This document shows positions 32,816 to 61,822 of a stretch of 64,000 bases of DNA, in pieces (position 1 is the stretch's first letter; each line of letters begins with the position of its first letter). Under the pieces are notes generated by a model. It saw nothing but the letters and a program-made list of their open reading frames with translations. It ran no database searches and was not told the DNA's origin. A program made the translations under genes and the position numbers. This DNA comes from Achromobacter sp. Marseille-Q4962. Its GTDB lineage: Bacteria; Pseudomonadota; Gammaproteobacteria; Burkholderiales; Burkholderiaceae_B. The stretch spans positions 1 through 64,000 of the forward strand of contig NZ_CALSFU010000019.1 of NCBI RefSeq assembly GCF_943737005.1. The letters run 5' to 3'.

Positions 32816-33167
32816 GGCGTGGGTCCGTACCGTGGGAGCGGAAGGGCGCGCGCGGATCGCGAAGCTTGAGCGCGGGCGGGATGTCGGGTACTGTCCGACC
32901 AGCGCCATGGCGCAAGGCGGAGACAGCGAAGGCGAAAAGGGTAACCATGACGGTAGTTTATTGGTAAAAACCCTAGACTTGTTTTGCCTGATACTTTAAA
33001 CCTAAACTATGCTGCGCGCCACTTTTCCCCATGCCGCAATGCGGGAGCGGTGTTGCAGGCGCCGGTCTTGCCAGGGTCTTGCAGGCCCCGCCGGGCCGGC
33101 AGAAGTCTTTCGAACCGCAATTTACAAGAACACCCCTCTGCGCGGCTCGCGCACGGAGAAAACCACC
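32816..33167. promoter_or_regulatory. 352-bp divergent control region, MarR gene / ABC importer
   Basis: Contains an AT-rich core at about 32950-33012. A plausible plus-strand promoter is TTGTTT (32979-32984), 18-bp spacer, TAAACT (33003-33008). The -10 overlaps the element TTTAAACCTAAACTAT at 32995-33010, whose last ten bases recur exactly at 59390-59399. Repression at this element would block the importer promoter. No coding frame here is credible. Confidence 0.55.
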
Positions 33168-34331
33168 ATGCGTTTCATCACTTCCTTCCTCGCCGCCGCC
33201 GCGCTGGTTCCGGCCCTCGCGCAGGCGGACGCCATCAAGGTCGGCATCGCCAACGACATCTCCGGCCCCTTCTCGGCGCTGGGCGCCGAGGCCCGCGACG
33301 GTTTCAACCTCGCCATCAAGCAGCTGGGCGGCAAGCTGGGCGGCCAGCCCGCCGAATTCCTGCAGACCGACATGGGCGGCAACCCCGACCAGGCCCGCCA
33401 GCTCGTCACCCGCTACATCCAGCGCGAGAAGATCGATTTCTTCACGGGCCCCATCGGCTCCAACGTGGCGCTGGCCGTGGGCCCGGCGCTGTTCGCGGCC
33501 AAGGTGCCGTACCTGTCCAACAATCCCGGCCCCAGCCAGCTCGCCGGCGCGCAGTGCAACCCCTACTGGTTCGGCACGTCGTACCAGAACGACGCCTTTC
33601 ACGAGGCGGCGGGCAAGGTGGCGGCCGACCGCGGCTACAAGAAGATGTTCATCATGGCGCCGGACTACCCGGCGGGCAAGGATGCCCTCACGGGCTTCAA
33701 GCGCGGCTACAAGACGCCGCCGGCCGACGAGGTGTACACCAAGCTCGGGCAGATCGACTACGCGGCCGAGCTGGCGCAGATCCGCGCCGCCAAGCCCGAT
33801 GCGGTCTACATCTTCCTGCCCGGCGGCATGGGCATCAATTTCGTCAAGCAGTTCGTGTCGGCCGGCCTGTCGCAGAGCATCAAGCTCATCGGCCCGGGCT
33901 TCTCGGCCGACGAGGACGTCATCCAGGCGGTGGGCGAGCCCATGCTGGGCATGTACAACACGGCGCAGTGGGCGCACGACCTGGACGTGCCGCAGAACAA
34001 GGCTTTCGTCGCGGCCTTCCGCAAGGAATACAACGGCCGCTATCCGTCGGTGTACGCCGCCCAGGCTTATGACGTCATCATGGCCATGGATGCGGCCGTC
34101 AAGCAGGCCGGCGGCAAGGCCGCCGACCGCCAGGCCATCGTGAAGGCGCTCGAAAAGGCCGACTACCCCTCGGTGCGCGGCAGCTTCACCTACGGCAAGA
34201 ACCACTATCCCATCCAGGCCTACTACCTGCGCGTGGTCGACAAGGACGCCGACGGTCGCATCACCAACAAGCTGGTGGGCAAGGTGTTCGACCAGTACCA
34301 GGACGTCTACGTGGGCGACTGCAAGCTCTGA
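33168..34331 (+). CDS. Branched-chain/aromatic-acid ABC transporter substrate-binding protein
   Basis: Periplasmic binding protein of the LivJ/LivK class, 387 residues. The signal peptide (MRFITSFLAAAALVPALAQA) cleaves before DAIKVGIANDISGPFSALG, the classic start of the mature lobe. Both lobes are complete. Close relatives bind amino acids, amides or aromatic acids. The neighbouring MarR gene and the shared operator with an aryl-CoA operon favour an aromatic acid, an inference only. First gene of a five-gene importer operon; a hairpin separates it from the permease genes. Confidence 0.9.
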   Translation: MRFITSFLAAAALVPALAQADAIKVGIANDISGPFSALGAEARDGFNLAIKQLGGKLGGQPAEFLQTDMGGNPDQARQLVTRYIQREKIDFFTGPIGSNVALAVGPALFAAKVPYLSNNPGPSQLAGAQCNPYWFGTSYQNDAFHEAAGKVAADRGYKKMFIMAPDYPAGKDALTGFKRGYKTPPADEVYTKLGQIDYAAELAQIRAAKPDAVYIFLPGGMGINFVKQFVSAGLSQSIKLIGPGFSADEDVIQAVGEPMLGMYNTAQWAHDLDVPQNKAFVAAFRKEYNGRYPSVYAAQAYDVIMAMDAAVKQAGGKAADRQAIVKALEKADYPSVRGSFTYGKNHYPIQAYYLRVVDKDADGRITNKLVGKVFDQYQDVYVGDCKL

Positions 34332-34391
34332 CCGGGCGCCGCCGGCGGGCTCGCGCCCGCCTGCTTCCGCGCGGACCAGGCATCGAAGGCA

Positions 34392-34414
34392 CGCGGGCCG
34401 CAAACAGGCCCGCG
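34392..34414 (+). other. Intercistronic hairpin after the binding-protein gene
   Basis: CGCGGGCC / GGCCCGCG stem of 8 bp with a 7-nt loop (GCAAACA). A second stem, GGCGGGC-TCGC-GCCCGCC, lies just after the stop of the binding-protein gene near 34343-34361. Such hairpins often protect the upstream message and allow the binding protein to be made in excess of the permease. Confidence 0.4.
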
Positions 34415-34429
34415 GCAAGGGGAAGCTTC

Positions 34430-35350
34430 ATGACGTTCACGCTCATCCTCGAGCAACTGCTGAACGGTCTGCAATTCGGATTGATGCTGTTTTTGATCGC
34501 GGCCGGCCTCACCCTGGTGTTCGGCATCATGGACATCATGAATCTGGCGCACGGCTCGCTCTACATGGCGGGTGCCTACGTCGCGGCCGAAACCATGCAG
34601 CGCACGGGTTCTTTCACCGCCGCGGTGCTGGTGGCCGCGCTGGCCACCGGCGCGGTGGGCCTGGCGCTGGAGCTGGCGCTCGTGCGGCGGCTGGCGCTGC
34701 GCGACCACCTGGCGCAGGTGCTGGGAACCTACGCCGTCATTCTCATCGCCAACGACCTGGTCAAGATGATCTGGGGGCCGGCCCCCGTCATGCTCAACAT
34801 GCCCGCCGCCCTGTCGGGGCCGGTGCGGCTGTTGCCCGACCTGTTGTACCCGGCCTATCGCCTGATGATCATCGTGTTCGGGGTGCTCGCGGCGGCGGGA
34901 TTGTACTGGTTCGTGACGCGCACCCGGGCCGGCGTGCTGGTGCGGGCGGGCGCCTCCAACCGGCAGATGGCCACGCTCATGGGCGTGCGCGTGCCCCTGC
35001 TGTTCCTGGGCGTGTTCGTGCTGGGCGCCATGCTGGCCGCCGTGGCGGGCGCGCTGCTGGGGCCGCTGACCTCGGTGCAGATCGGCATGGGCGAGGAAAT
35101 CCTCATCCTCGTGCTGGTATGCATTGTGATCGGCGGCATCGGGTCGATCCGCGGCGCGTTCGTGGGGGCGTTGCTGGTGGGCATGGTGGACACGGCGGGC
35201 CGGGCCTTCCTGCCCATGCTGCTGCGCCAGGTGTTTTCTCCCGCGGTGGCCTCCAGCGTCGGCCCGACGCTGGCCGCCATCGCGATCTACGTATTGATGG
35301 CGGTCGTGCTGGTGTTCCGGCCTTCCGGCCTGTTTCCGGCGCGCGGCTGA
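34430..35350 (+). CDS. ABC transporter permease (LivH type)
   Basis: 306-residue inner-membrane permease with about eight hydrophobic segments. The LivH signature LTLVFGIMDIMNLAHGSLYM lies at residues about 24-43, and the coupling region GMGEEILILVLVCIVIGGIGSIRG near 220-245. It pairs with the LivM-type permease 2 bp downstream. Start ATG 34430 with AAGGGGAAG upstream. Confidence 0.93.
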   Translation: MTFTLILEQLLNGLQFGLMLFLIAAGLTLVFGIMDIMNLAHGSLYMAGAYVAAETMQRTGSFTAAVLVAALATGAVGLALELALVRRLALRDHLAQVLGTYAVILIANDLVKMIWGPAPVMLNMPAALSGPVRLLPDLLYPAYRLMIIVFGVLAAAGLYWFVTRTRAGVLVRAGASNRQMATLMGVRVPLLFLGVFVLGAMLAAVAGALLGPLTSVQIGMGEEILILVLVCIVIGGIGSIRGAFVGALLVGMVDTAGRAFLPMLLRQVFSPAVASSVGPTLAAIAIYVLMAVVLVFRPSGLFPARG

Positions 35351-35352
35351 CC

Positions 35353-36318
35353 ATGAGCAGAACCACAGTCTGGTCCCTGGCCCTGCTGGCGCTGCTGGCG
35401 GCGTTTCCGTTGGTCGCGCCCATGCTCGGTCTGGATTTCTACGTTTCCTTCGTGCGGCGCGTGCTGATCTACGCGCTGGCCGCCACCAGCCTGAACCTCA
35501 TCCTGGGCTATGGCGGCATGGTGGCGCTGGGCCACGCCGCCTTCGTGGGCGCCGGCGCCTACGCGGTGGGCATCCTGGGCACCCTGGGGGTGGATTCGGC
35601 GCTGGTGAGCTGGCCGGCGGCGGTGGCGCTGGCCGCGCTGCTGGCCTTCGTCACCGGGGCCGTCTCGCTGCGCACGCGGGGCGTGTACTTCATCATGATT
35701 ACGCTGGCGTTCGCGCAGATGCTGTTCTACATATTCATTTCGCTGCGCCAGTACGGCGGCGAAGACGGCCTGAACCTGCCCGGCTATTCCACGCTGCCGG
35801 GGCTGGACCTGGCCAATGACGTGTCCTTCTACTATCTCGTGCTGGCGATTTTCGCGCTGGCCATGTGGGCCTTCGGCCACGTGACGGCCTCGCGCTTCGG
35901 CATGGCGCTGCAGGGCGTGCGCGAAAACGAGTCGCGCATGGAGTCCATGGGCTATCCCGTTTACCGCATCAAGCTCACCGCCTTCACGATCAGCGGCGCG
36001 GCGGCCGGCCTGGCGGGCGCGCTGCTGGCCAACCATAACCTTTTCATCTCGCCCAGCATCATGCACTGGACGCAGTCGGCCAACCTGCTGATCATGGTGC
36101 TGGTGGGCGGCATCGGCCTGCGCTACGGCGGCGTGGCGGGGGCGGTGGTCATGCTCGTGCTGGAGGAAGCCCTGAGGCTCTGGACCGAATACTGGCATCT
36201 GCCGCTGGGCATTCTGCTGCTGTGCGTGCTGTTCGGCGCGCCGCGCGGGCTGGCCGGGCTGTTCGGCCCGCTGTTCGCCGGGCGCGCGGCGCCGCGATCC
36301 GGAAAGGCGGGCCCATGA
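35353..36318 (+). CDS. ABC transporter permease (LivM type)
   Basis: 321-residue inner-membrane permease. Landmarks: ALAATSLNLILGYGGMVALG near the start, GVRENESRMESMGYPVYRIK in the cytoplasmic coupling loop, and ILLLCVLFGAPRGLAG at the C-terminus. The ATG at 35353 lies just after the LivH stop, and its 3' end overlaps the LivG-type start by ATGA. Heterodimeric partner of the LivH-type protein. Confidence 0.93.
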   Translation: MSRTTVWSLALLALLAAFPLVAPMLGLDFYVSFVRRVLIYALAATSLNLILGYGGMVALGHAAFVGAGAYAVGILGTLGVDSALVSWPAAVALAALLAFVTGAVSLRTRGVYFIMITLAFAQMLFYIFISLRQYGGEDGLNLPGYSTLPGLDLANDVSFYYLVLAIFALAMWAFGHVTASRFGMALQGVRENESRMESMGYPVYRIKLTAFTISGAAAGLAGALLANHNLFISPSIMHWTQSANLLIMVLVGGIGLRYGGVAGAVVMLVLEEALRLWTEYWHLPLGILLLCVLFGAPRGLAGLFGPLFAGRAAPRSGKAGP

Positions 36319-37103
36319 ACGCCGCCGTTTCCTCCGCGCCCGCCCTGCAGGCCAGCGGCCTGGTGCGCCGCTTCGGCGCGCTGGTGGCCACCGACCATGT
36401 CTCGCTCACGCTGAACCCGGGCGAGATCCATGCGCTCATCGGCCCCAACGGCGCGGGCAAGTCCACGCTCATCCACCTGCTGTCGGGCACCCTGGCGGCC
36501 GACGAGGGCCGGCTGATGCTGGGCGGGCGGGACATCACCGCTCTGAACGCCCACCAGCGGGTGGCGGCGGGCCTGTCGCGTTCGTTCCAGATCACCCATA
36601 TCTTCAAGCAGTCCAGCGTGCTGGACAACCTGGCGCTGGCGGTGCAGGCGCATTCGGGCAGCAGCTTCCGCTTCTGGAGGCCGCGCGCGGCCGACACCGC
36701 GCTGTACGACCAGGCGCGCGAGCTGGCGCGCGAATGCGCCATCGACCCGGCCCTGCTGGGCAGGCCGGCGGGCACCCTGCCGCACGGCGAGCAGCGCAAG
36801 GTGGAGTTCGCGCTGGCGCAGGCGGCCCGGCCCAGCGTGCTGCTGCTGGACGAGCCCATGGCGGGCATGGGGCCGGACGAAACCCTGCGCCTGACCGAAC
36901 TCATCGAAACCCAGCGCGGCCAGGCCGCCATGCTGCTGGTGGAACACGATATGCAGGCCGTGTTCCGGCTCGCCGACCGGATCTCGGTGCTGGTGTACGG
37001 GCGCGTCATCGCGACCGGCACGCCGGACGAGATCCGCGCCAATCCCGAAGTGCGGCAGGCCTACCTGGGCGATGACGAAACCGACGCCAAGGAGACCGCC
37101 TGA
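36315..37103 (+). CDS. ABC transporter ATP-binding protein (LivG type)
   Basis: 262-residue nucleotide-binding subunit. Walker A GPNGAGKSTLIHL, a signature region of the LivG type (GTLPHGEQRKVEFALAQAA) and Walker B VLLLDEPMAGMGPDE are present. The LivG insert between helices is also visible. It overlaps both neighbours (ATGA with LivM, TGATG with LivF), indicating tight translational coupling. Confidence 0.94.
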   Translation: MNAAVSSAPALQASGLVRRFGALVATDHVSLTLNPGEIHALIGPNGAGKSTLIHLLSGTLAADEGRLMLGGRDITALNAHQRVAAGLSRSFQITHIFKQSSVLDNLALAVQAHSGSSFRFWRPRAADTALYDQARELARECAIDPALLGRPAGTLPHGEQRKVEFALAQAARPSVLLLDEPMAGMGPDETLRLTELIETQRGQAAMLLVEHDMQAVFRLADRISVLVYGRVIATGTPDEIRANPEVRQAYLGDDETDAKETA

Positions 37104-37807
37104 TGCTGGCCATTGAATCGGTGCAAAGCGGCTACGGCGCCAGCCAGGTGCTGTTCGGCGTGAGCCTGGAGATCGGCGCCGGGCAGGTGGTGACGCTGCT
37201 GGGGCGCAACGGCATGGGCAAGACCACGCTGCTGCGCACGCTGTTCGGCCAGTTGCCGCTGCGCGGCGGCAGGATGCGCTTTGCCGGCCAGGACATCGGC
37301 GGCTGGAGCCCGGACCGCATCGCGCGCCTGGGCATGGCCATCGTGCCCGAGGGGCGGCAGTGCTTTCCCAACCTCACGGTGCGCGAACACCTGACGGCGT
37401 TCGCCGACCGCCGCAACCCCGACATCGGGCGGCCCTGGACGCCCGAACGCGTATTCGAGCTTTTTCCCCGCCTGGCCGAGCGCGCCCGCAACATGGGCAA
37501 CCAGTTGTCGGGCGGAGAACAGCAGATGCTCGCCATCGGCCGGGCGCTGGTCACCAACCCGAGATTGCTGATCCTGGACGAGGCCACCGAGGGCCTGGCG
37601 CCGCGCATCCGGGAAGAAATATGGAACTGCCTGGCGCGCCTGCGCGAGGCGGGACAAACCATTCTTGTCATCGACAAATATGTGGAAAGATTGCTCCGGC
37701 TGGCCGACCGGCACGTCATCCTGGAGCGCGGCAAGGTGGTGTGGGCGGGCGATTCGGCCGCCCTGGACGCCGACCGGGGCTTGTGGGAACGGTATCTGGG
37801 GGTGTAG
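37103..37807 (+). CDS. ABC transporter ATP-binding protein (LivF type)
   Basis: 234-residue nucleotide-binding subunit. Walker A LLGRNGMGKTTLLRTL, signature LSGGEQQMLAIGRAL and Walker B LLILDEATEGLAP are intact. Last gene of the importer operon, starting at the A of the upstream TGA. A 386-bp spacer with several GC-rich hairpins follows. Confidence 0.95.
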   Translation: MLAIESVQSGYGASQVLFGVSLEIGAGQVVTLLGRNGMGKTTLLRTLFGQLPLRGGRMRFAGQDIGGWSPDRIARLGMAIVPEGRQCFPNLTVREHLTAFADRRNPDIGRPWTPERVFELFPRLAERARNMGNQLSGGEQQMLAIGRALVTNPRLLILDEATEGLAPRIREEIWNCLARLREAGQTILVIDKYVERLLRLADRHVILERGKVVWAGDSAALDADRGLWERYLGV

Positions 37808-38193
37808 CGGGAAAGCCGCAGAATGCGCGCCCGTCCGGACCGCACGGAGAAACAAAGAGAAATAAATTGAAATATATGTTGCGTCTTCGCAATGAAAGCG
37901 GGCCGTCCGCGGGGCGCTCGTATACACCTGTTTCAATTCCCTTGACTGTTCTCTACACTTAGCGCGCCGGACGTGCCGCGCGGGCGCGCCGGCACTCCGT
38001 GCCTTGCCTGGCACGCGGCGGGCGGTGCGCGTGGGCGCACGGCAGGCGGCCGGTCCAGACCGGCCCCCGCGCCCGGCCGGTCCAGCGTGCCTGTGCAAGG
38101 CTGCGCGCGCGCCCTGATTTGATTTATGCAGCCGGTCCGTACCCGGTTTTCGGGACGGGCCGATGTCTTGATTGGCGGTTGGGAAGACTTCGC
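37808..38193. promoter_or_regulatory. 386-bp region between importer and siaA
   Basis: Begins with an AT-rich segment (AAATAAATTGAAATATATG, about 37858-37876). A candidate promoter near 37930-37960 reads TTCAAT, a 16-bp spacer, TACACT. Then come GC-rich hairpins, for example GGCCGGT-CCAG-ACCGGCC near 38048-38065. It probably holds the importer's 3' end and the sia promoter. No plausible gene is seen; the frame open upstream of siaA lacks signal-like or conserved sequence. Confidence 0.45.
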
Positions 38194-40179
38194 ATGGCGA
38201 AATGGGGTTTGCGCAGGAAATCGTTGCTGGCGTTATTGCTGGCGTGCCTGGTCGCGCTGGCGCCGGCCGTGATCATCGGCTGGCAAGTGCTCGACGGCGT
38301 GCGCGAGCACTTCGGGCGCGCATTTGCCGACAACTTCACTCAACTCAACCGGCAGCGCATCCTGGCGCCGATTTCGCGCGAGCTGGCGCTGTCGCAGCGC
38401 CTGGCCGACAGCGAAGTCACGCGGCGCTGGCTGCGCAACGAGAGCGACCCGGCCGCCCGCGAGCTCTTTTTCGTCGAAGCCGACGGCTACCGGCGCGATC
38501 TGCTGAGCCACGCCTATTTCATCGCCAGCGCCGCCACCGGCAACTATTACTTCAACGACGACCAGCCCCTGTCCGAGGCGCCGCGCTATACGCTCAGCCC
38601 CACGGCGCCGGACGATGGCTGGTTCTACAACACCATCAAGTCGTCCGCGCCGTACAACATCAACGTCAATCCCGATCTCAAGCTCAAGACCACGCGGGTC
38701 TGGATCAACGTGCAGGTCCGCGACCGCGGCAAGGTGCTGGGGCTGACGGGCGGCGGCCTGGACGTGGGCGGGTTCCTGCGCGAGTTCGTCAATAGCGGCC
38801 AGCCGGGAGTAACGCCCGTCATCGTCGACGAAAACGGCGCGATCCAGGCGTATTCCGACGCGTCCCTCATTGCCTACAATTCGGGCGCGGGCGGCGCGAG
38901 CGACGCCAACACCGTGTTCCGGCTGGTGGACGACGGGCCGGGGCGCGACGCGCTGCGCTCGGCCATGCGGGCGGCGAAGGCCGATCCGCAGTCGGTGCAG
39001 AGCGGCTGGGCGGACGTCAAGGGCGTGAAGCAGCTCGTTTCCGTGGCCTATATGCCGGAATTGCACTGGCACGTGCTGACGCTGGTGGACCTGGGGGCGG
39101 CGCGCGTGCTGGACACGCGCTGGCTGTGGCCCGCCGCCGCCGGGCTGGTGCTGCTGTTCGCGGCGCTGCTGCTGTGTTTCGGCTATGCGGTCGAACGCCT
39201 CATGCTGCGGCCGCTGCGCCGCCTGCAGCAATCGGCCCGGGCCATCGCCAACGGCAGCTACGACGTGCGCCTGCCGCCGGGCGGGCAGGACGAGATCGGC
39301 GATCTGAGCCGCGCCTTCGGCATCATGGCCGACAAGGTGCGCCAGCACACGGCCGAGCTCGAAACCAAGGTGCGCGAACGCACCTCCGAGCTCGAGAGCG
39401 CCAACCGCGCCATGGCGGCCGCGCACAAGAAGATCGGCGATTCCATTGACTATGCCAGCCTGATCCAGCGCGCCATCCTGCCCGACCGCCAGTTGACGCA
39501 GTCGCTGGGCGCGCACCATTTCGTGCTGTGGAAGCCGCGCGACGTGGTGGGCGGCGATTTCTACGTGTTCCATTCCGACGGCGCCAATTGCCTGCTGGGC
39601 ATCATGGACTGCGCCGGCCACGGCGTGCCGGGCGCGCTCATGACCATGCTGGCGCGCGCGGCCATCGACCTGGCGGTTTCCGAGGCCGGGCCGCGCGATC
39701 CGGCCGGCGTGCTGGCCCGCACCGACAACGCCATCCGCGCCATGCTCGCCGACGCGCAGCTGCCGCGCGCGCTGGCGACGAATACCGATGCGGGGCTGGT
39801 ATATATTGACCGCCAGGCCGGCAGGCTGCTGTACGCAGGGGCGAAGATCAGCCTGTACGCAAGCAATGGCCACGACCTGCGCGAAATCCCCGGCGGCAGG
39901 CGCGCGTTGGGCGACAAGCGGGCCGGCGAGTACCGGAATATCGAACTGCCCATGGAGCCGGGCTGGACCTATTACCTGGCGACCGACGGCTTCCTGGACC
40001 AGGCGGGCGGCGAGCATGGCTTCGGCTTCGGCAACACGCGGTTCGCCGAAATGCTCAAACGGCATGCCGGGCGGCCGTTAACCGAGCAGGCGGCCGCGTT
40101 CACGCAGGCGCTGGCCGAGTACCAGGGCGGCCAGCCCCAGCGCGACGACATTACCCTGCTGTCTTTCCGATTCGAATAA
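38194..40179 (+). CDS. siaA: SiaA-type membrane sensor PP2C phosphatase
   Basis: 661 residues. A membrane helix (SLLALLLACLVALAPAVIIG) is followed by a periplasmic dCache-like sensor of about 280 residues, a second helix (WPAAAGLVLLFAALLLCFGY) and a HAMP domain. A coiled coil and a SpoIIE/PP2C phosphatase domain follow. Metal-binding motifs are present: VVGGDFY, DCAGHGVPGALMTM, TDGFLDQ and QRDDITLL. In Pseudomonas aeruginosa SiaA dephosphorylates SiaC in response to an external cue. The ATG at 38194 (MAKWGLRRK) fits the short cytoplasmic leader. Heads siaABCD. Confidence 0.9.
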   Translation: MAKWGLRRKSLLALLLACLVALAPAVIIGWQVLDGVREHFGRAFADNFTQLNRQRILAPISRELALSQRLADSEVTRRWLRNESDPAARELFFVEADGYRRDLLSHAYFIASAATGNYYFNDDQPLSEAPRYTLSPTAPDDGWFYNTIKSSAPYNINVNPDLKLKTTRVWINVQVRDRGKVLGLTGGGLDVGGFLREFVNSGQPGVTPVIVDENGAIQAYSDASLIAYNSGAGGASDANTVFRLVDDGPGRDALRSAMRAAKADPQSVQSGWADVKGVKQLVSVAYMPELHWHVLTLVDLGAARVLDTRWLWPAAAGLVLLFAALLLCFGYAVERLMLRPLRRLQQSARAIANGSYDVRLPPGGQDEIGDLSRAFGIMADKVRQHTAELETKVRERTSELESANRAMAAAHKKIGDSIDYASLIQRAILPDRQLTQSLGAHHFVLWKPRDVVGGDFYVFHSDGANCLLGIMDCAGHGVPGALMTMLARAAIDLAVSEAGPRDPAGVLARTDNAIRAMLADAQLPRALATNTDAGLVYIDRQAGRLLYAGAKISLYASNGHDLREIPGGRRALGDKRAGEYRNIELPMEPGWTYYLATDGFLDQAGGEHGFGFGNTRFAEMLKRHAGRPLTEQAAAFTQALAEYQGGQPQRDDITLLSFRFE

Positions 40180-40203
40180 ACGTTATCAAGGCGGTAACCC
40201 CCC

Positions 40204-40743
40204 ATGAATGCCTCCGATCTCTACGCATTGGGCGAACGGTTCACCCAGAGCCGCACCCTGCTGTGCTTCAACGGGCCGATTTCCCGCAGCCTGATCGAGG
40301 AGATCGGCAACGCGCTGAAGAACTACCTGACCGCCGAGCACGTGCGCCCGGCCGAGGCCATGGACGTGTTCTCGGTCTACATCGAGATGATCCAGAACAT
40401 CCGCCAGTACGCGGCCCTGCGCGGCCAGGTCGACGCCGCCGCCACGGTGGTGATCGGCCGCAACGAGGACAGCCGCTACGTGGTGTCGGCCGGCAACCTG
40501 GTGCGCCTCGAGGACGGGCACCAGCTCGTGGCGCGCATCCGCGAGCTGGCCGCGCTCGACAAGCCCGCCCTGAAGGCGGAATACAAGGCCCAGTTGCACA
40601 AGCCCCGGGCGCAGGGCGTGGCCTCGGGCGCGGGCCTGGGCCTGATCGACATCCAGCGGCGCGCCGGCGCGCCGCTGGAGGCCAGCCTGAAGCCGGTCGA
40701 GGCGCAGGGCCTGGCCTTCTTCAGCCTGAGCGCGGTCATCTGA
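40204..40743 (+). CDS. siaB: SiaB-type protein kinase
   Basis: 179 residues, the small SiaB family with a degenerate histidine-kinase-like ATPase fold: IEMIQNIRQYAAL carries the N-box-like asparagine and SGAGLGLIDIQRRAG a G-box. In P. aeruginosa SiaB phosphorylates SiaC on a threonine, opposing SiaA. Starts 24 bp after siaA. A GC-rich hairpin region of about 117 bp separates it from siaC. Confidence 0.87.
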   Translation: MNASDLYALGERFTQSRTLLCFNGPISRSLIEEIGNALKNYLTAEHVRPAEAMDVFSVYIEMIQNIRQYAALRGQVDAAATVVIGRNEDSRYVVSAGNLVRLEDGHQLVARIRELAALDKPALKAEYKAQLHKPRAQGVASGAGLGLIDIQRRAGAPLEASLKPVEAQGLAFFSLSAVI

Positions 40744-40860
40744 ATGGCGATGGCGCGCATGTCACCGTTTCCTGAATCAGCAAACCCGCAACGGCCCCTG
40801 GCGGCCGCGGGCGGCGGCGCGCGCGCCGTGCCGCCCGCGCGGGCGTTATCGGAGTCATTG

Positions 40861-41238
40861 ATGAACGACCTGAACATACCGGGCACCCAGTCCACGCCCG
40901 CCATTTCGACCGACGCCGCGACCGGCGTGCTGGCGATGCGCGGCGATTCCTATCCCGAAAATTCCTTCGAGCTGTTCGGCCCCGTGATCGAGTGGGTGGA
41001 ATCGTACCTGGCGACGTCCGCGGCGCCGCTGCGCCTGGAGCTGGAACTGCTCTACCTGAACACCAGCAGCATCAAGTCCATGATGGATATCTTCGACCTG
41101 CTGGAAGCCGCCCACGGCAAGGGCCGCGAGGTGGGCGTGATCTGGTACTACGACATGCGCAACGAACGCGTGGGCGAGCTGGCCGAGGAGTTCAAGGAAG
41201 ACTGCACCTTCCCCTTCTCGGTCGTCGGGCGGCAATGA
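40861..41238 (+). CDS. siaC: SiaC-type phosphorylatable partner-switch protein
   Basis: 125 residues, DUF1987/SiaC family. The phosphoacceptor threonine known from P. aeruginosa SiaC (Thr68) is conserved at exactly residue 68 in LELLYLNTSSIKSMMDIFDL. Unphosphorylated SiaC binds and activates the diguanylate cyclase SiaD. The ATG at 40861 has GGAG seven bases upstream. It overlaps siaD by ATGA, fitting 1:1 synthesis of the partners. Confidence 0.92.
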   Translation: MNDLNIPGTQSTPAISTDAATGVLAMRGDSYPENSFELFGPVIEWVESYLATSAAPLRLELELLYLNTSSIKSMMDIFDLLEAAHGKGREVGVIWYYDMRNERVGELAEEFKEDCTFPFSVVGRQ

Positions 41239-42032
41239 AAACCGGCTCCTCCGAACTGGACCAGCGCATCGCGGCGCTGCTCGCCGATCCGGCGCATTTC
41301 GGCCATCCGCTGCGCGATGCGCTGGAATCGCTGTGGCGGCACAACGCCGAGCAGATGACGCGCATCGAGCGCGTGACCCAGCTTTCGGACGCCTTCCAGA
41401 GCATGGCCCACGAGCGCGAGCTGGGCCTGTGCGAACGCTTCGACCGGCAGCTGCGCCGGCTCGCGCGCATTGCGCGCATCTCCGATCACTACCAGAGCAT
41501 GATGCGCGACCTCAACGCCGCGCTGCAGGAAACATCCAGCCGCGATCCGCTGACCGGCCTGTATAACCGCCGTGCGCTCATGGATATGATCAAGCAGGAA
41601 GTCACGCGGGCGGGCCGCAGCGGCCAGTCTTTCGTGGTCGCCATGCTGGACGTGGACCATTTCAAGTCCGTGAACGATCGCTACGGCCACGAGTCGGGCG
41701 ACCGTGTCCTGGTGGAGCTGGCCGGCGTGCTGGGCGCCAGCCTGCGCGAGTACGACCTGTGCGGGCGATGGGGCGGCGAAGAGTTCCTGGTGCTGCTGCC
41801 CAACACTCCGCCCGAGGCCGCGCAGGGCGTCATGGACCGCCTGGTGGCGGCCGTGCGCGGCCTGGCGGTCGAGGTGAACGGCGACGTGCTGCGGCTGACC
41901 GTCAGCATCGGCATGGCGTCGCACCAGCTCGGGGAAACCTTTTCGGAAACGCTCAGCCGGGCGGATCAGGCGCTCTACCTGGCCAAGCAGGACGGGCGCG
42001 ACCGCGTCGCGCTCGGGTTTCCCCGGCCCTGA
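41235..42032 (+). CDS. siaD: SiaD-type diguanylate cyclase
   Basis: 265 residues. An N-terminal helical region of about 95 residues (QMTRIERVTQLSDAFQSMAH), the SiaC-binding part in relatives, precedes a GGDEF domain: DPLTGLYNRRAL, LDVDHFKSVNDRYGHESGD and active-site WGGEEF. An inhibitory-site RxxD (REYD) lies five residues before GGEEF, so product inhibition is likely. Makes c-di-GMP from two GTP. Its stop abuts the start of a PAS/GGDEF/EAL gene. Confidence 0.92.
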   Translation: MKTGSSELDQRIAALLADPAHFGHPLRDALESLWRHNAEQMTRIERVTQLSDAFQSMAHERELGLCERFDRQLRRLARIARISDHYQSMMRDLNAALQETSSRDPLTGLYNRRALMDMIKQEVTRAGRSGQSFVVAMLDVDHFKSVNDRYGHESGDRVLVELAGVLGASLREYDLCGRWGGEEFLVLLPNTPPEAAQGVMDRLVAAVRGLAVEVNGDVLRLTVSIGMASHQLGETFSETLSRADQALYLAKQDGRDRVALGFPRP

Positions 42033-44648
42033 ATGAAACCGGAACCGCAGTCTTCCGGCATGGAGCCCTGTATGCTTGATTCTCATCTCGGCGTTTCGAG
42101 CGCGTCCCCGCCAGGGGATATGTGGCATGTGGGCAATTATCTGGCGTCGATGGACCGGGCACTGCTGCTGTTCGACTTCGACCCCGCCGGTCACGTGTTG
42201 CACGCGAACGCCAATTTCCTCGCCGCGGTGGGCTATTCCCGCGACGAAATCACCGCCATGCGCCACGACATGCTGTGCGACAGCATGGACGAGGGGCAGG
42301 GCTGCGCCAGCAGCGAGCAGGTCTGGGCGCGGCTGCGCCGCGGCGGCCATTTTTCGGGCACCTGCCGCTATCGCCGCGCCGACGGCGAATTCCTCTGGAT
42401 CGAGGCCACCTATCTGCCCATCGCCGATGCCGCCGGCGAAGTGCGGCGCATCACCGTCATCTCGCGCAAGTCCATCGCCGATGCCGAGCGCCTGGAAGAA
42501 ATCCGCCTGCTGATGCTGGGCATCAACGAAACCGGCAACGCGGTGGCCGTGTCCGGCGCCGACGGCCGCATCGTGTACGTGAATGACGGCTTCCAGCGCA
42601 TGCTGGGGTTTTCGCGCGCGGATGCGCTGGACCAGGAACTGGGCGAGCTGCTGGCCGGCGGCCGGCCGGACGGCGGCACCCGCGAAGAGCTGGACCGCCG
42701 CATCGCCTGCCGCGACGGTTTCCACAAGGACGTGCTGGTCTACGACCGCGGGGGCAAGCCTCTGTGGGTCTCGGTCATGGCCAACTCCGTGTTCGACGAG
42801 CGCGGCACGCTGGTCAACATCGTGGACGTGCTCACCGACATCACGCCCACCAAGGTGCACGAAGTGCTGCAGCGCCGCGTGCTGCAGGCCATGGTGAACG
42901 AAGCCTCCGTGACCGAGGTGATGAACATGGTCTGCCGCGAGGTGGAGCGGCTGGCGCCCGAAGTGCTGGCCACCGTGCTGCGCGTGGACGAAAGCGGGCG
43001 GCTGCGGACGCTGGCCTCGCCCTCCATGCCCGCGGCCTACGCCGAGGCGCTGGACGGCCTGCCCATCGGCCCGCAGGCCGGCTCCTGCGGCACGGCGGCC
43101 TTCCTGGGCCGGCCCGTCATCGTGCCCGACATCGCCACCGACCCGCTGTGGCGCGACTACCGGCACCTGCCGCTGCCCGCGGACATCAAGGCCTGCTGGT
43201 CCTCGCCCATCAAGTCCAGCGACGGGCGCGTTATCGGCACCTTCGGCTTCTATTTCCGCGAACGCCGCCTGCCCGACGACTTCCATCATCGCCTGGTGGA
43301 TGTCTGCGTCTATCTATGCGCGCTGGCGCTGGAGCGCGAAGAGGCCCGCGCCCGCATCCGGCAGCTCGCCTTCTACGACGAGCTCACCGGCCTGCCCAAC
43401 CGCAACCTGCTGCTGGCCCAGGCCGAGCAGGCCATCGCGCGGGCCGAGCCCGACCGCAAGCGCGTGGCCGTGCTGTTCCTGGACCTGGACCGCTTCAAGC
43501 AGGTCAACGACACGCTGGGCCACCCCATCGGCGACGCCCTGCTGCGCGAAGTGGCCCTGCGCCTGCGCAAACTGGCGCGCGCCACCGACATCGTGGGCCG
43601 CCTCTCGGGCGACGAATTCGTCATGCTCATGCCGGATTTCGAGCACGGCCGGCTGACCGCCGCCGCCGAGCACATCCTCGTGGCGCTGGCCCAGCCGCTG
43701 GGCGTCGGCGGCATCACGCTCAACCCCTCGGTGAGCATCGGCATCAGCGTCTTTCCGGAAAACGGGCGCGACATGGACACGCTGCTGCGCCACGCCGACA
43801 TGGCCATGTACCAGGCCAAGACGGCGGGCCGCAACCGCATTTCCTTTTTCAGCGCCGAGATGAACCGCCAGGCGCAGGAACGGCTGGCGCTGGAGGCCGC
43901 CCTGCGCGACGCGCTGGAAGCCAAGGCGCTGCGCCTGCACTACCAGCCGCAGGTGGGCCTGAAGAACGGCAGCCTGTACGGCGTGGAGGCGCTGGCCCGC
44001 TGGCGCCACCCCACGCTGGGCGACATCTCCCCGGCGCGCTTCGTGCCGCTGGCGGAGGAGTGCGGCCTGATCGGCGACCTGGCCCACTGGGCGCTGCGGG
44101 AAGCCTGCTCCCAGCTCGCGGCGTGGCGCGGCCGGGGTCTGCGCGTGCCGTCGGTGTCGGTCAACCTGTCGGCCACCAACTTCCACAACCTCAACCTGCC
44201 CCGCCTGATCGCGGACAATCTCGCCGAATTCGGCCTGGCCCCGGGCGATCTCATGCTCGAGATCACCGAAGGCGTGGTGCTGGACGCCACCGCCGGCACG
44301 CTGCGCACCATCGCGGAGCTGCACCGGCTGGGCGTGCGCCTGTCCATGGACGATTTCGGCACCGGCTATTCCAGCCTGGGCCACCTGCGCCGGCTCATCG
44401 TGGACGAGCTCAAACTCGACCGCAGCTTCGTGCAGGGGCTGGAGAGCGACGACGCGGCGCGCGCGCTCACCAGCGCCGTCATCCGCATCGGCGAAAGCCT
44501 CAGCCTGCCGGTGGTGGCCGAAGGGGTGGAAAACGAGGAGCAGCGCCGTTTTCTCATCGAGCAGGGCTGCGCCGCGGGACAGGGCTTCCTGTTCTCGCCG
44601 CCGCTGCCGGCCGAAGAGCTGGAAGCCTGGCTGCGCGAGCGGGGGTAG
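42033..44648 (+). CDS. PAS-PAS-GAF-GGDEF-EAL c-di-GMP enzyme
   Basis: 871 residues, apparently soluble. Domains: PAS at about 35-140 and 165-280, GAF at about 285-430, GGDEF at about 440-600 (active site SGDEF, with RATD five residues before it as an inhibitory site), and EAL at about 610-870. EAL residues look complete: GVEALARWRHP, SVNLSATN, LEITEG, MDDFGTGYSSLG, ELKLDRSF and AEGVENEEQ, so phosphodiesterase activity is likely. The ATG at 42033 abuts the siaD stop; ATGs at 42060 and 42072 are alternatives. Its place suggests it terminates or tunes the Sia signal. Confidence 0.9.
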   Translation: MKPEPQSSGMEPCMLDSHLGVSSASPPGDMWHVGNYLASMDRALLLFDFDPAGHVLHANANFLAAVGYSRDEITAMRHDMLCDSMDEGQGCASSEQVWARLRRGGHFSGTCRYRRADGEFLWIEATYLPIADAAGEVRRITVISRKSIADAERLEEIRLLMLGINETGNAVAVSGADGRIVYVNDGFQRMLGFSRADALDQELGELLAGGRPDGGTREELDRRIACRDGFHKDVLVYDRGGKPLWVSVMANSVFDERGTLVNIVDVLTDITPTKVHEVLQRRVLQAMVNEASVTEVMNMVCREVERLAPEVLATVLRVDESGRLRTLASPSMPAAYAEALDGLPIGPQAGSCGTAAFLGRPVIVPDIATDPLWRDYRHLPLPADIKACWSSPIKSSDGRVIGTFGFYFRERRLPDDFHHRLVDVCVYLCALALEREEARARIRQLAFYDELTGLPNRNLLLAQAEQAIARAEPDRKRVAVLFLDLDRFKQVNDTLGHPIGDALLREVALRLRKLARATDIVGRLSGDEFVMLMPDFEHGRLTAAAEHILVALAQPLGVGGITLNPSVSIGISVFPENGRDMDTLLRHADMAMYQAKTAGRNRISFFSAEMNRQAQERLALEAALRDALEAKALRLHYQPQVGLKNGSLYGVEALARWRHPTLGDISPARFVPLAEECGLIGDLAHWALREACSQLAAWRGRGLRVPSVSVNLSATNFHNLNLPRLIADNLAEFGLAPGDLMLEITEGVVLDATAGTLRTIAELHRLGVRLSMDDFGTGYSSLGHLRRLIVDELKLDRSFVQGLESDDAARALTSAVIRIGESLSLPVVAEGVENEEQRRFLIEQGCAAGQGFLFSPPLPAEELEAWLRERG

Positions 44649-44653
44649 GCATC

Positions 44654-44681
44654 CGCCTTCCGGGCGCGCGCCCGGAAGGCG
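44654..44681. terminator. Perfect 28-nt palindrome after the sia operon
   Basis: CGCCTTCCGGGCGC followed directly by its exact reverse complement, five bases after the stop of the PAS/GGDEF/EAL gene. Two copies of the self-complementary GCGGCGCCGC follow at about 44692-44723. Likely transcription barrier between the sia operon and bpsR; no T-tract. Confidence 0.55.
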
Positions 44682-44737
44682 CGCCGGGCGGGCGCGGCGC
44701 CGCTGCACAGCGCGGCGCCGCCGGGCCTCGTACACTG

Positions 44738-44747
44738 CGCAAACATC
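44738..44747. promoter_or_regulatory. Candidate BpsR operator upstream of bpsR
   Basis: CGCAAACATC, 45 bp before the bpsR start codon. It is the exact reverse complement of GATGTTTGCG at 51665-51674 in the nic control region. Shared occurrence at the regulator's own promoter and its presumed target suggests an autoregulatory operator. Inferred from the match alone. Confidence 0.4.
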
Positions 44748-44792
44748 CATTGAGAAAAATCACAGTGTCCATTGCATCGCTCGGATAGGCTC

Positions 44793-45260
44793 ATGCGAAA
44801 TACGAAAGGCAAGTCCGCCTCCAACGAAGACGACTATTTGTTCTCCGACCAGATCGGCCACCTGCTCCGGCGCGCCTACCAGCGGCATACCGCGCTTTTC
44901 CAGCAGTACATTCCCGACTCCCAGCTCACCGCGGCGCAGTTCGTGGTGCTCTGCTCCGTGCGCGACAACGAGGGAAGTTCCCTGGCCGACATCGTCAAGG
45001 CCACGGTGATAGACCAGGCCACCATACGCGGCGTAGTGGACCGGCTCAAGCAGCGCAAGCTGGTCCAGGTCGATCACGATCCGTTCGACCGCCGCAAGCT
45101 GGTCGTCAACCTCACGCCCGTCGGGCGCGGGCTGGTGGAGCAGATGGAGCCGTTCGCCAAGCAGATCACGGAAAGCACTTATGGCAAGCTCAATCCGGCC
45201 GAGCGCGTGGCGCTCGATTTCCTCTTGAAGAAGATGCTGGAGAGCGACGAGACGGAATGA
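44793..45260 (+). CDS. bpsR: MarR-family regulator of nicotinate catabolism (BpsR/NicR)
   Basis: 155 residues. The winged helix reads LTAAQFVVLCSVRDNEGSSL then TVIDQATIRGVVDRLKQRKL, with the wing DHDPFDRRKLVVNLTPVG. It matches NicR/BpsR-type MarR repressors, which release DNA on binding 6-hydroxynicotinate; in Bordetella BpsR also affects the Bps polysaccharide. Its position at the edge of a full nic locus supports the call. Start ATG 44793; TTG at 44772 is possible but less good. Convergent with the permease gene across a strong terminator. Confidence 0.85.
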   Translation: MRNTKGKSASNEDDYLFSDQIGHLLRRAYQRHTALFQQYIPDSQLTAAQFVVLCSVRDNEGSSLADIVKATVIDQATIRGVVDRLKQRKLVQVDHDPFDRRKLVVNLTPVGRGLVEQMEPFAKQITESTYGKLNPAERVALDFLLKKMLESDETE

Positions 45261-45271
45261 GCGGCCGGTGG

Positions 45272-45303
45272 GCCGGGAGCCGCGCCCGGGGGCGCGGCTC
45301 CCG
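45272..45303. terminator. Bidirectional terminator, bpsR / permease gene
   Basis: Perfect 14-bp stem CCGGGAGCCGCGCC / GGCGCGGCTCCCGG with loop CGGG, centred in the 57-bp gap between the convergent 3' ends of bpsR and the MFS gene. No T-tract on either side. Confidence 0.6.
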
Positions 45304-45317
45304 GTTGCCGGCGCCGT

Positions 45318-46634
45318 TCAGTCCAGCGCGCGGTTGCGCGATTCCACGTCCACGGCCCAGATCGAAAGCGCGCCCGCCGCCAGCATGCTCGACAGCACGA
45401 CCAGCGCCAGCGTGAAGTGGCTGCTCATGATGGGCGCGATGATCGCCGGCGCGAAGAGCCCGCCGAAACGGGCGACCGCGCCGGCCATGCCCATGCCGCT
45501 GGCGCGCAGGTCGGTCGGGTAGACCTCGGGCGTGAAGGCATACAGGGCTCCCCAGGTGCCCAGCAGCGAAAAGCTCATCAGCAGGGTGGAGCCGACCACC
45601 ACCACGGGCGAAGTGCCCAGGCTGTAGAGCATGCAGCCTGCGGCGCTCAGCAGCAGAAAGCCGATGAGCGTGGGCTTGCGGCCCCAGCGCTCGACCCCGT
45701 AGGCCGACAGGGCGAAGCCGGGCAGCTGCACGAGAGCGAGCACGACCAGGAATTCCTGCCCGCGCATGAACGCGAAGCCCGCGCTGCTGAGCTTGATGGG
45801 CAGGTAGACGAAGACCCCGTAGTAGGCGATGGAGATCAGCGCCCAGGCCAGGAAGAGCGAAACGCTGCGGCGCCGGTAGCCGGAGGAGAACAGCGCCGAC
45901 AGGGGCTTGCGCTCCAGCAGTTCGGGCTTGATTTCAGGGATCTCGGGAGAACGGCCGTTGACGCGGGCCACCCGTTCCAGCACCTTGCGCGCCTGGCCCG
46001 GCCGGCCGCTGCGGTTCAGGTACATGGGCGATTCGGGAATGTAGAAGCGCAGCGCCACGCCGATGAGGGCAGGCAGCCCGGTCACGAAGAAAATCATGCG
46101 CCAGGCATCGTCTCCCCGCGACGCGGCAGCCAGCGCCAGCACGGCCAGGCAGATGGTGCCCACCGCCCAGAACGATTCCAGCAGCACCAGCCAGCGGCCG
46201 CGGCGGTCGCTGGGCAGGAACTCGGCCATCATCGTGTAGTCCACCGGCAGCGTGCCGCCCACGCCGATCCCCGTCAGGAAGCGCAGCAGCAGGAGCCAGC
46301 CGAATTCGGGCGCGAAAGCCGAGGCCACCCCGGCGCAGGCGTCGACGATGACGGCCATCATGAGCACCGGACGGCGGCCGATGCGGTCGGCCAGGCGGCC
46401 GAATACGAAGGCGCCGATCAGCATGCCCACGAAGAAGGACGTGCCCGTCTGCAGCGCCTGGGGCACCGTGATGCCGAAGGTCTTGGCGATCGTCGGTGCG
46501 CTGAAGCCGATGGACAGCACCTGCATCGCGTCGGCCAGCCACACCAGGCCGAAAATCACGAAGAGCCGGTACTGGAATTTGCCGACGCCCGCCGCCTGGA
46601 TGCCCTGTTCCACTGAAATGAATGAAGCTGACAT
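45318..46634 (-). CDS. MFS permease, probable nicotinate/aromatic acid transporter
   Basis: 438 residues, about 12 membrane helices, aromatic-acid:H+ symporter-like. It has the sugar-porter-like motif FGRLADRIGRRPVL after helix 2, a repeat of it (YGVERWGRKPTLIG) in the second half, and ESPMYLNRSGRPGQA in the central loop. The gene lies 131 bp downstream of the nicB-like gene on the same strand, with AAGGAAA before its ATG, so it may be read with nicCAB or from its own promoter. Uptake of nicotinate (NicT role) is inferred from context. Confidence 0.82.
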   Translation of the reverse strand: MSASFISVEQGIQAAGVGKFQYRLFVIFGLVWLADAMQVLSIGFSAPTIAKTFGITVPQALQTGTSFFVGMLIGAFVFGRLADRIGRRPVLMMAVIVDACAGVASAFAPEFGWLLLLRFLTGIGVGGTLPVDYTMMAEFLPSDRRGRWLVLLESFWAVGTICLAVLALAAASRGDDAWRMIFFVTGLPALIGVALRFYIPESPMYLNRSGRPGQARKVLERVARVNGRSPEIPEIKPELLERKPLSALFSSGYRRRSVSLFLAWALISIAYYGVFVYLPIKLSSAGFAFMRGQEFLVVLALVQLPGFALSAYGVERWGRKPTLIGFLLLSAAGCMLYSLGTSPVVVVGSTLLMSFSLLGTWGALYAFTPEVYPTDLRASGMGMAGAVARFGGLFAPAIIAPIMSSHFTLALVVLSSMLAAGALSIWAVDVESRNRALD

Positions 46635-46735
46635 GTGTAGATTTCCTTTTTGTCATCACCGCAATTGCCGATTCCGCGCGTTTCCGGGCATGCAAGCCGC
46701 GCGCCGGGCCGGGGGGAACGGCTCATGGGTGGCTC

Positions 46736-46755
46736 ACAGGGGCCGTTGCCCCTGT
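46736..46755 (+). terminator. Small hairpin with T-tract between nicB-like gene and permease
   Basis: ACAGGGGC-CGTT-GCCCCTGT followed on the plus strand by TTT. As an intrinsic terminator it faces rightward, against the nic genes, so it could stop antisense transcription running into the nicB-like gene. On the minus strand it is merely a hairpin without U-tract. Confidence 0.35.
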
Positions 46756-46765
46756 TTTCCCCTTG

Positions 46766-50238: not shown

Positions 50239-50283
50239 GCTGTGCGTGGCCTGTGGCGGAGGTTCGACGGGACCTAGAAAATA

Positions 50284-51759
<1,476 letters not shown>

Positions 51760-52530: not shown

Positions 52531-52573
52531 GCGGCCGGCACGGTCCGCCGCCCCGACTTTCCAGGAACGCAAA

Positions 52574-59470: not shown

Positions 59471-61822
59471 ATGAAGATAGTCTGCATAGGCGGCGGCCCC
59501 GCCGGTCTGTATTTCGGCCTGCTGATGAAGCTGCGGGATCCGGCCAACGAAGTCACCGTGATCGAACGCAACCGGCCCTACGATACCTTCGGCTGGGGGG
59601 TGGTGTTCTCGGACGCCACCATGTCCAACCTCAGCGAGGCCGATCCGGTGTCGGCCCGCACCATCGGCGAGGCGTTCAACCGCTGGGACGACATCGACAT
59701 CCATTTCAAGGGACGCACCTTGCGCAGCGGCGGCCATGGCTTCATCGGCATCGGCCGCAAGAAACTGCTGAATATTCTGCAGGCCCGCTGCGAAGACGTG
59801 GGCGTGAAGCTGGTGTTCGAGGAGTTCGTGCAGGACGACCAGGCGGTGGCCCGCCAGTACGACGCCGATCTCGTCATCGCTTCCGATGGCATCAACAGCC
59901 AGATCCGCACGCGCTACGCCGACACCTACCATCCCGACATCGACCAGCGCCGCTGCCGCTTCGTCTGGCTGGGCACCACCAAGACCTTCGACGCCTTCAC
60001 CTTCGCTTTCGTGCAGACCGAGCACGGCTGGTTCCAGGCCCATGCCTACCAGTTCGAGGAAGGGCTTTCCACTTTCATCGTGGAGACGCCCGAGGAAACC
60101 TGGAAAGCCGCCGGCATCGACCAGATGAGCCAGGAAGACGGCATCGCCTATTGCGAAAAGCTGTTCGCGCCCTGGCTGGACGGCCACCGCCTCATGAGCA
60201 ACGCGGCCCACCTGCGCGGCTCGGCCATCTGGATCCGCTTTCCGCGCGTCATCTGCAACACCTGGGTGCACTGGAACACGCTGGACACCGCGCGCGGCGA
60301 GCGGCGCGTGCCTGTGGTGCTCATGGGAGACGCCGCGCACACCGCCCATTTCTCGATCGGGTCCGGCACCAAGCTGGCCCTGGAAGACGCCATCGAGCTG
60401 GCGCGCTGCCTGAGCGGCGCGGAGGGTTCGGTCGAGGCCGGCCTGACGCGCTACGAGGAGGTGCGCAGCGTGGAGGTGCTGAAGATCCAGAACGCCGCGC
60501 GCAACTCCACCGAGTGGTTCGAGAACGTGGCGCGCTACGCCGGCCTGGAGCCGGAGCAGTTCGCCTATTCGCTGCTGACCCGTTCGCAGCGTATTTCGCA
60601 TGAGAACCTGCGCCTGCGCGACGCTGCCTGGCTGGAGGGTTACGAGCGCTGGCTGGCCGAACGCGCCGGCGCGCCGGCGCCCGCCGGCCAGCGGCCGCCG
60701 CTGCCCATGCTCACGCCCTTCCAGGCGCGCGGCGTGCGGCTGAAGAACCGCATCATGGTGTCGCCCATGGCCATGTATTCCTGCGAGAACGGCGTGCCCG
60801 GCGATTTCCACCTGGTGCACCTGGGCGCGCGCGCCATGGGCGGGGCCGGCCTGGTCATGGTGGAAATGACCTGCGTGACGCCGGAGGGCCGCATCACCCC
60901 GGGCTGCCCCGGCCTGTGGAACGACGACCAGGCGCGCGCTTTCAAGCGCATCGTGGATTTCGTGCACGCCAATTCCGATGCCCGCATCGGCATGCAGCTG
61001 GGCCATGCCGGCCGCAAGGGTTCCACGCAGCTCGGCTGGCAGAAGATCGACCATCCCCTGCCCGAAGGCAACTGGCCGCTGCTCTCGGCGTCGGCGCTGC
61101 CTTACATCGAGGGCGTATCGCAGGTGCCGCGCGCCATGACGCGGGCCGACATGGACCAGGTGCGCGACAGCTTCGTGGCCGCCGCCCGGCGCGCGGTGGA
61201 AGCCGGTTTCGACTGGCTCGAACTGCACTGCGCGCACGGCTACCTGCTGTCCAGCTTCATCTCGCCGCTGACCAACCGGCGCGAGGACGAGTACGGCGGC
61301 AGCCTGGACAACCGCCTGCGCTACCCGCTGGAGGTCTTTCGCGCCGTGCGCGAGGTGTGGCCGGCGGACAAGCCCATGTCGGTGCGCATCTCGGCGCACG
61401 ACTGGGTGGAGGGCGGCATCACGGCCGACGACGCGGTGGAGATCGCGCGCCGCTTCAGGGCGGCCGGAGCCGACCTGATCGACTGCTCTTCCGGCCAGGT
61501 GAGCAAGGCCGAGAAGCCGGTGTACGGCCGGATGTTCCAGACCCCCTTCGCCGACCGCGTGCGCAACGAGGCCGGCATCGCCACCATCGCGGTGGGCGCG
61601 ATTTTCGAGGCCGATCACGCCAACGGCATCATCGCCTCGGGCCGCGCCGACCTCTGCGCCCTGGCGCGCCCGCACCTGGCGGACGCGTCCTGGACGCTGC
61701 GCGAATCGGCGCGCGTGGGTTACCGTGAGGTGGGCTGGCCGAACCAGTACCTGGCGGGCAAGCGCCAGCTCGAAACCAACTTCGAACGCGCCGCGGCCAT
61801 GGCGCAACTGGACATCAAATGA
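59471..61822 (+). CDS. Bifunctional FAD monooxygenase / old-yellow-enzyme reductase (salicylyl-CoA 5-hydroxylase type)
   Basis: 783 residues, a fusion. Residues 1 to about 395 are an FAD monooxygenase ([39 protein letters not shown]). Residues about 410-783 are an OYE-type flavin reductase ([29 protein letters not shown]-like [32 protein letters not shown]). This architecture is known from 2-aminobenzoyl-CoA monooxygenase/reductase and salicylyl-CoA 5-hydroxylase. It hydroxylates, and possibly reduces, an aromatic CoA thioester. Overlaps the SDR gene by ATGA. The exact substrate cannot be read from sequence. Confidence 0.9.

Follow-up and report, generated by a model that had tools for sequence, protein, structure and literature searches.

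Synthesis of c-di-GMP in response to an outside cue through SiaABCD is well defined, and the operon as portrayed in the accessible literature does not include a counterpart phosphodiesterase (PDE). Has such a counterpart been joined to the sia genes of Achromobacter sp. Marseille-Q4962? According to the accessible text of two studies of Pseudomonas aeruginosa, SiaA, by keeping SiaC unphosphorylated, lets SiaD produce c-di-GMP (PMC8457831, PMC7647112), and the published operon of that species is described, in the portions available, as siaABCD (PMC12834913, PMC7647112), whereas the locus studied here adds an EAL gene. We analyzed a 64,000-nucleotide stretch (the window) of contig C19 from this 4.89-Mb genome, in which siaA, siaB, siaC, siaD, and a fifth gene follow one another in that order on the plus strand (38194 to 44648; Table 1). 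On balance, we lean toward reading the locus as a five-gene sia operon in Achromobacter, in which an opposing cyclase/PDE pair resembling Escherichia coli DosC/DosP would be grafted onto the Sia switch. Cyclase/PDE pairs are already known as a kind; what is new is that one is combined with the Sia switch. Achromobacter offers a natural test of two ideas, namely, that a cyclase and a phosphodiesterase function as a local pair and that the heme control of DosC/DosP has a flavin counterpart, and relatives carrying sia alone, the PDE alone, both, or an EAL-only gene provide ready-made comparisons. No report of the fifth gene, or of Sia in Achromobacter, was found in the open literature, a search that most subscription papers lie outside.

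Table 1. Coordinates of the sia genes, the fifth gene with its domains, and flanking features (positions are those of the window)
Feature	Position	Strand	Description	Family match
liv-type ABC transporter (SBP, livH, livM, livG, livF)	33009..37807	+	Conserved neighbor, 5′ of siaA; genes named by resemblance	
siaA	38194..40179	+	HAMP and PP2C (SpoIIE) phosphatase, 661 aa	NF038263, 1087.5 bits (cutoff 700)
siaB	40204..40743	+	Kinase of SiaC, 179 aa	NF038264, 278.6 bits (cutoff 225)
siaC	40861..41238	+	Phosphoprotein, 125 aa	NF038265, 208.5 bits (cutoff 150)
siaD	41235..42032	+	Diguanylate cyclase, 265 aa, GGEEF	NF038266, 378.9 bits (cutoff 290)
GGAG	42062..42065	+	Likely ribosome-binding site for the Met14 start, read in the window	
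Fifth gene	42072..44648	+	PAS-PAS-GAF-GGDEF-EAL; frame opens at 42033, conserved start at 42072	
PAS1	42141..42482	+	Flavin-type by similarity; most variable folded domain	
PAS2	42495..42857	+	Matches PAS chains	PAS_9
GAF domain	42903..43334	+	Residues 291-434	GAF_2, 1.8e-18
GGDEF domain	43368..43838	+	SGDEF motif and RxxD site	PF00990, 1e-48
EAL domain	43896..44603	+	Motif residues complete	PF00563, 3.3e-72
Inverted repeat	44654..44681	+	Perfect, 14 bp, just 3′ of the fifth-gene stop; without a T run and absent from the terminator list	
Salicylyl-CoA 5-hydroxylase, bifunctional	59471..61822	+	Neighbor in relatives	NF006101, 1426.6 bits (cutoff 1078)

The sia genes and the junction after siaD

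The assignments of SiaA to SiaD rest on NCBIfam equivalog cutoffs, which all four products exceeded, and by these family cutoffs we class siaABCD of the window as a true sia operon, in agreement with the first-pass annotation, which had recognized the genes by domain order and by Thr68 of SiaC. Pfam HAMP and SpoIIE domains were found in SiaA, residues 383 to 661 of which align with structure 6k4e. Residue 68 of SiaC is Thr, within the sequence NTS, and the solved chain 6kko aligns with SiaC over residues 1 to 122, the LNTSS stretch being identical. SiaD aligns with the solved chain 7e6g over residues 6 to 259 and keeps both stalk motifs, SDAFQ and SDHYQ, which contact SiaC in the solved complex (PMC8457831, eLife, as far as its accessible text goes). 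The likeness to P. aeruginosa SiaABCD lies in these family scores, in Thr68, and in the two stalk motifs. The phosphorylation state of SiaC would depend on SiaA as phosphatase and SiaB as kinase, and its unphosphorylated form would, by orthology with P. aeruginosa, switch on the cyclase SiaD. Between siaB and siaC lie 117 nt (40744 to 40860) that include a GC-rich inverted repeat at 40806 to 40839; this gap measures approximately 20 to 75 nt in 19 of 20 loci compared and approximately 150 nt in locus L090.

The fifth gene had initially been taken to start at the base directly after the siaD stop. Its open reading frame does open there, at 42033, but a start at this position was rejected as not conserved among orthologs, and the conserved start lies 39 nt farther on. 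We aligned 42 orthologs (the window, 38 other Achromobacter, and three from a second genus; genomes G004, G005, G020, and G027 are absent from these residue counts). The first Met of the frame is kept as Met in 35 of the 42 rows and Met10 in 34, whereas Met14 is Met in every row; because the three second-genus rows are otherwise unlike at the N terminus, the solid count for Met14 covers the Achromobacter rows, 39 of 39. All 38 other Achromobacter loci have GGAG ahead of Met14. The likely start is the one at 42072, which would yield a product of 858 amino acids beginning 39 nt past siaD.

A gap of this length is too short to accommodate a complete promoter, and the siaD/fifth-gene junctions are short in the 39 Achromobacter loci read. 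The siaD/fifth-gene junction contained no terminator-like stem; stems of this kind were detected within siaD (at 41613) and near the beginning of the fifth gene (at 42331), in a region with 8 terminator-like sites versus 4.5 expected. A promoter may lie inside siaD. A sigma-70 scan of positions 37700 to 45300 returned none, even before siaA, and is uninformative because 0.7 would be expected by chance. The perfect repeat beyond the fifth gene is a possible transcript end. The tight spacing (a 4-nt overlap of the siaD start with the siaC stop, followed by the 39-nt gap), the stem-free junction, and the palindrome after the fifth gene argue for the opposing pair, in which the fifth protein would be produced from the same message as siaABCD.

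Domains and predicted activity of the fifth protein

Pfam recognized PAS_3, PAS_9, GAF_2, GGDEF, and EAL domains in the fifth product, bearing out the PAS/GAF sensors proposed at first reading. The closest named records to the gene come from Achromobacter piechaudii and A. mucicolens (89%). By sequence, the protein matches E. coli DosP in two stretches (66-310 and 387-868) and PA0575 (5m3c) over GGDEF-EAL. An AlphaFold model (mean pLDDT 83.5, pTM 0.45) aligned with DosP entries over 752 to 771 residues of chains 781 to 788 residues long (Z 28-33), with an rmsd of 18 to 24 because the domains are placed differently; the PAS-PAS-GGDEF-EAL architecture of DosP is matched over the whole length. 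The protein nevertheless differs from DosP in its score against the DosP equivalog NF008467 (631.3 bits over residues 114 to 869, under the cutoff of 857), in the recognized GAF domain, and in a glycine at the DosP His77 column, located by manual column count as chain residue 58 of 9clo, which corresponds to entry residue 77 provided that the chain begins at 20. We take His77 to be the heme ligand of DosP, and His77 mutants of its heme domain have reportedly been studied. By the curated cutoff, the fifth protein is classed as a DosP relative that falls outside DosP.

PAS1 alone matches 3ewk (E = 1.3e-13), the aerotaxis receptor 8dik (5.7e-9), and 2gj3 (2.2e-4), presumably the flavin binders MmoS, Aer, and NifL, and is closer to these three than to DosP. 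Given the glycine at the His77 column and these better matches, a DosP-like heme oxygen sensor was not taken as the default, and PAS1 is probably a flavin redox sensor instead. Mean identity over 38 congeners was 73.1% for PAS1, 91.8% for PAS2, 88.2% for GAF, 95.1% for GGDEF, and 94.3% for EAL; the variability of PAS1 is as one expects for a sensor input.

The earlier claim of an apparently complete EAL site stood up in the ortholog alignment: E652, N711, E743, E746, D773, D774, K794, E830, and Q850, whose catalytic roles we take to be known from EAL motifs, are invariant in 42 of 42 orthologs and likewise in a 21-sequence family alignment. Judged by these residues, the EAL site is complete, and the fifth protein probably destroys c-di-GMP, that is, it is a predicted phosphodiesterase. 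The GGDEF half admits another reading, in which the SGDEF domain makes c-di-GMP and the fifth gene, encoding a bifunctional enzyme or second cyclase, amplifies output. Consistent with this, the metal-site and RxxD residues (D484, D486, N492, D527, E528, F529, R516, and D519) are invariant in all 42 orthologs, and the 21-sequence family alignment has SGDEF as its consensus. The EAL residues, however, are equally invariant, and the motif itself varies: it reads SGDEF in 39 orthologs and SSDEF in the three from the second genus (G108, G210, and G235). In addition, a genome of another genus (G049) carries after siaD a 444-amino-acid EAL gene (L082:4510-5841) in which no GGDEF, PAS, or GAF domain was recognized and whose first 180 residues match no Pfam family. 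Because the EAL residues are invariant, the SGDEF/SSDEF motif varies, and this relative has EAL alone, the EAL domain seems to be what selection keeps. The pattern points to hydrolysis as the kept function, with room left for cyclase activity; the GGDEF domain most likely serves to control the EAL domain rather than to act as a main cyclase, and amplification by the fifth gene strikes us as quite improbable.

Trigger-enzyme behavior occurs in other EAL proteins, and the close linkage to one cyclase and the multidomain architecture would suit a fifth protein that uses its EAL site to sense local c-di-GMP and acts on SiaD or SiaC through direct contact, catalysis then serving as a signal instead of the output. 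Such control would be very surprising in view of the missing SiaC-binding stalk motif: the best score in a motif scan of the fifth protein was 5.9 bits, reached by 22 of 500 shuffles, versus 51.3 bits in SiaD. We rejected the idea that SiaC acts on the PDE via the SiaD stalk motif, as no motif stood clearly above chance. In the opposing pair that we prefer, the fifth protein would be a soluble DosP-like phosphodiesterase that degrades c-di-GMP in the vicinity of the cyclase and is controlled by a cytoplasmic PAS/PAS/GAF sensor of its own; synthesis would be gated by an envelope or carbon signal and breakdown by the cytoplasmic state.

Distribution of the fifth gene

Within Achromobacter, siaC was present in 43 of 43 genomes, and the fifth gene adjoins siaC/siaD in 42 of them. 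In 41 of these 42 genomes, it is found approximately 1.17 to 1.20 kb past the point where the siaC match starts; the contig of G033 opens within siaC and goes on to carry the fifth gene. The draft genome G027 (78% complete, 590 contigs) has siaABCD and then only the first 47 residues of the fifth gene, beyond which the frame continues as unrelated sequence (L195:5068-5609); this break may be a misassembly or a real truncation. Recurrence in 42 of 43 genomes of the genus shows that siaD and the fifth gene are not adjacent by chance. An oddity of one strain, the objection foreseen in the first-pass annotation, was rejected on this genus-wide evidence.

A draw of 250 genomes from the family contained 63 with siaC above cutoff (29 Achromobacter and 34 others), and all 32 genomes in the draw that match the sensor half at 63% identity or more have the gene beside siaC. 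The region after siaD was read in all 34 non-Achromobacter genomes, over at least 4.2 kb each. An ortholog of the fifth gene follows siaD in three (G108, G210, and G235), the EAL-only gene in one (G049), and no EAL gene was present in the stretch read in the other 30. At the level of the order, SiaD was matched at E = 1e-60 or better in 18 of 300 genomes, and no EAL gene was seen at 15 further siaD loci read (14 genomes). At the level of the class, 5 of 369 genomes had a SiaD match of that quality, with no EAL gene at the three siaD loci read. The siaD loci of G431 and G783 were left out. The survey of Burkholderiales sia operons suggested earlier thus recovers the arrangement in Achromobacter and a few relatives, with 0 of 15 order-level and 0 of 3 class-level loci carrying it. 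A fifth gene as a general feature of sia operons was rejected, being missing from most non-Achromobacter siaD loci read. The linkage in 42 of 43 Achromobacter genomes and in the three second-genus genomes argues for the opposing pair.

History of the locus and known cyclase/PDE pairs

We placed the fifth gene among its relatives in an EAL tree that included 10 Achromobacter loci besides the window (L225, a short broken frame, was left out). The sampled PDEs that are linked to sia fall into a single 14-row clade (support 100/98), nested in a larger clade (98/89) with the PDEs of G050 and G089 and the EAL gene of G049. A single clade of all sia-linked EAL genes, including that of G049, was neither rejected nor demonstrated (AU p value of 0.378), with G049 on a long branch. 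In a concatenated Sia tree, made by a quick method with SH-aLRT support only (three Achromobacter loci besides the window were included, and G027 was labeled as having the fifth gene), the branch of G108, G210, and G235 lies outside a group that comprises Achromobacter, which has the PDE, and six genomes without it. For these 13 rows, one gain and one loss would suffice, and two gains are possible; PDE presence needs three changes once G049 is counted. PDEs of one clade, and a Sia tree compatible with gain followed by loss in a sister clade, argue for the opposing pair.

Synteny was compared between the window and 20 other loci. The slot bounded by SBP-livHMGF and the salicylyl-CoA 5-hydroxylase holds siaABCD and the PDE in G007 and G041, siaABCD alone in G077, G151, G184, G239, and G046, and the PDE alone in G050 and G089, two genomes of another genus in which a related PDE follows livF and siaABCD lies on another contig. 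Where the hydroxylase was absent from the stretch read, the order was liv-siaABCD-PDE (G108 and G235) or liv-siaABCD (G087). The sia genes stand without liv in G116, G138, G084, and G049, and G072 has only distant liv-like genes, downstream. This variable, liv/hydroxylase-framed slot occurs in several Alcaligenaceae. Approximately 15 kb of other genes separate the PDE from the hydroxylase in the window; the gap is 0.25 to 6 kb in 19 genomes of the genus that have the two genes on a single contig, each in the plus orientation, and the hydroxylase is far from the PDE in G005 and G017. The intervening stretch of the window (44793 to 59312) holds genes for a MarR regulator, an aromatic-acid-type MFS transporter, an FAD monooxygenase-like product, and XdhC-like products, and looks like a catabolic insertion at the slot.

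The three contents of the slot would fit a history in which the PDE, separately regulated, belongs to the liv/salicylyl-CoA hydroxylase slot and siaABCD came to lie ahead of it by insertion, with no functional coupling to SiaD; PDE genes that stand alone must, after all, be expressed without sia. On the other side, the 19 kb read in G049 contain siaABCD and, approximately 30 nt past siaD, an EAL gene, but no liv gene was found there, the junctions are short in 39 Achromobacter, and the gene sits beside siaD in all 42 genomes of the genus that have it. We regard this uncoupled history as doubtful, and the slot history is nonetheless the strongest argument against adjacency as obligatory coupling. 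Because sia without the PDE is common and related PDEs occur without sia (G050 and G089), neither part needs the other. The self-limiting circuit put forward in the first-pass annotation is a reasonable, although unproven, interpretation; the evidence speaks against an obligatory arrangement, with no EAL gene at that place in 30 of the 34 other siaC-bearing genomes of the family and the PDE apart from siaABCD in G050 and G089. A stronger version of coupling would make the fifth protein a dedicated Sia partner, ancestral to one branch of Alcaligenaceae, in a two-input on/off device in which synthesis is gated by an envelope or carbon signal via SiaA and breakdown by a flavin redox signal, tied to aromatic uptake and breakdown through the liv and salicylyl-CoA neighbors. 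We hold this version to be unlikely.

The opposing pair that we favor has precedents in kind. In E. coli, the cyclase DosC is coexpressed with DosP, a PAS-type EAL phosphodiesterase (PMC12805831, accessible portion). The locus of the window likewise combines a cyclase with a PAS-type EAL protein that aligns with DosP over nearly its full length, but the cyclase partner is SiaD and not a globin-coupled cyclase. The Komagataeibacter cdg operons contain PDE and cyclase genes in one operon (pdeA1-dgc1); they differ in that pdeA precedes dgc, the PAS domain of PDEA1 binds heme, and the Sia switch is not part of the description in the accessible text (PMC6559022). Together with the invariant EAL residues and the near full-length DosP match, these known DosC/DosP and Komagataeibacter pairings argue for an opposing pair in Achromobacter, and Komagataeibacter PDEs were found among the relatives of the fifth protein. 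Bordetella presumably belongs to the same bacterial family as the host of the window. Its BpeGReg and PdeF genes are also adjacent cyclase and PDE genes, but PdeF is an HD-GYP protein and BpeGReg a globin-coupled cyclase (PMC12805831, accessible portion).

Two further loci were seen among the relatives. In Pseudomonas delhiensis (L112:6527-15683), siaA is preceded, at a distance of approximately 4.5 kb and in the same orientation, by a PDE with 57% identity, and the interval contains two opposite-strand open reading frames and one on the same strand. In Pandoraea (L104:4434-9589), a GGDEF gene is followed in the same orientation by a DosP-like PDE gene, the two being separated by approximately 1.1 kb and a single open reading frame, possibly another cyclase/PDE neighborhood.
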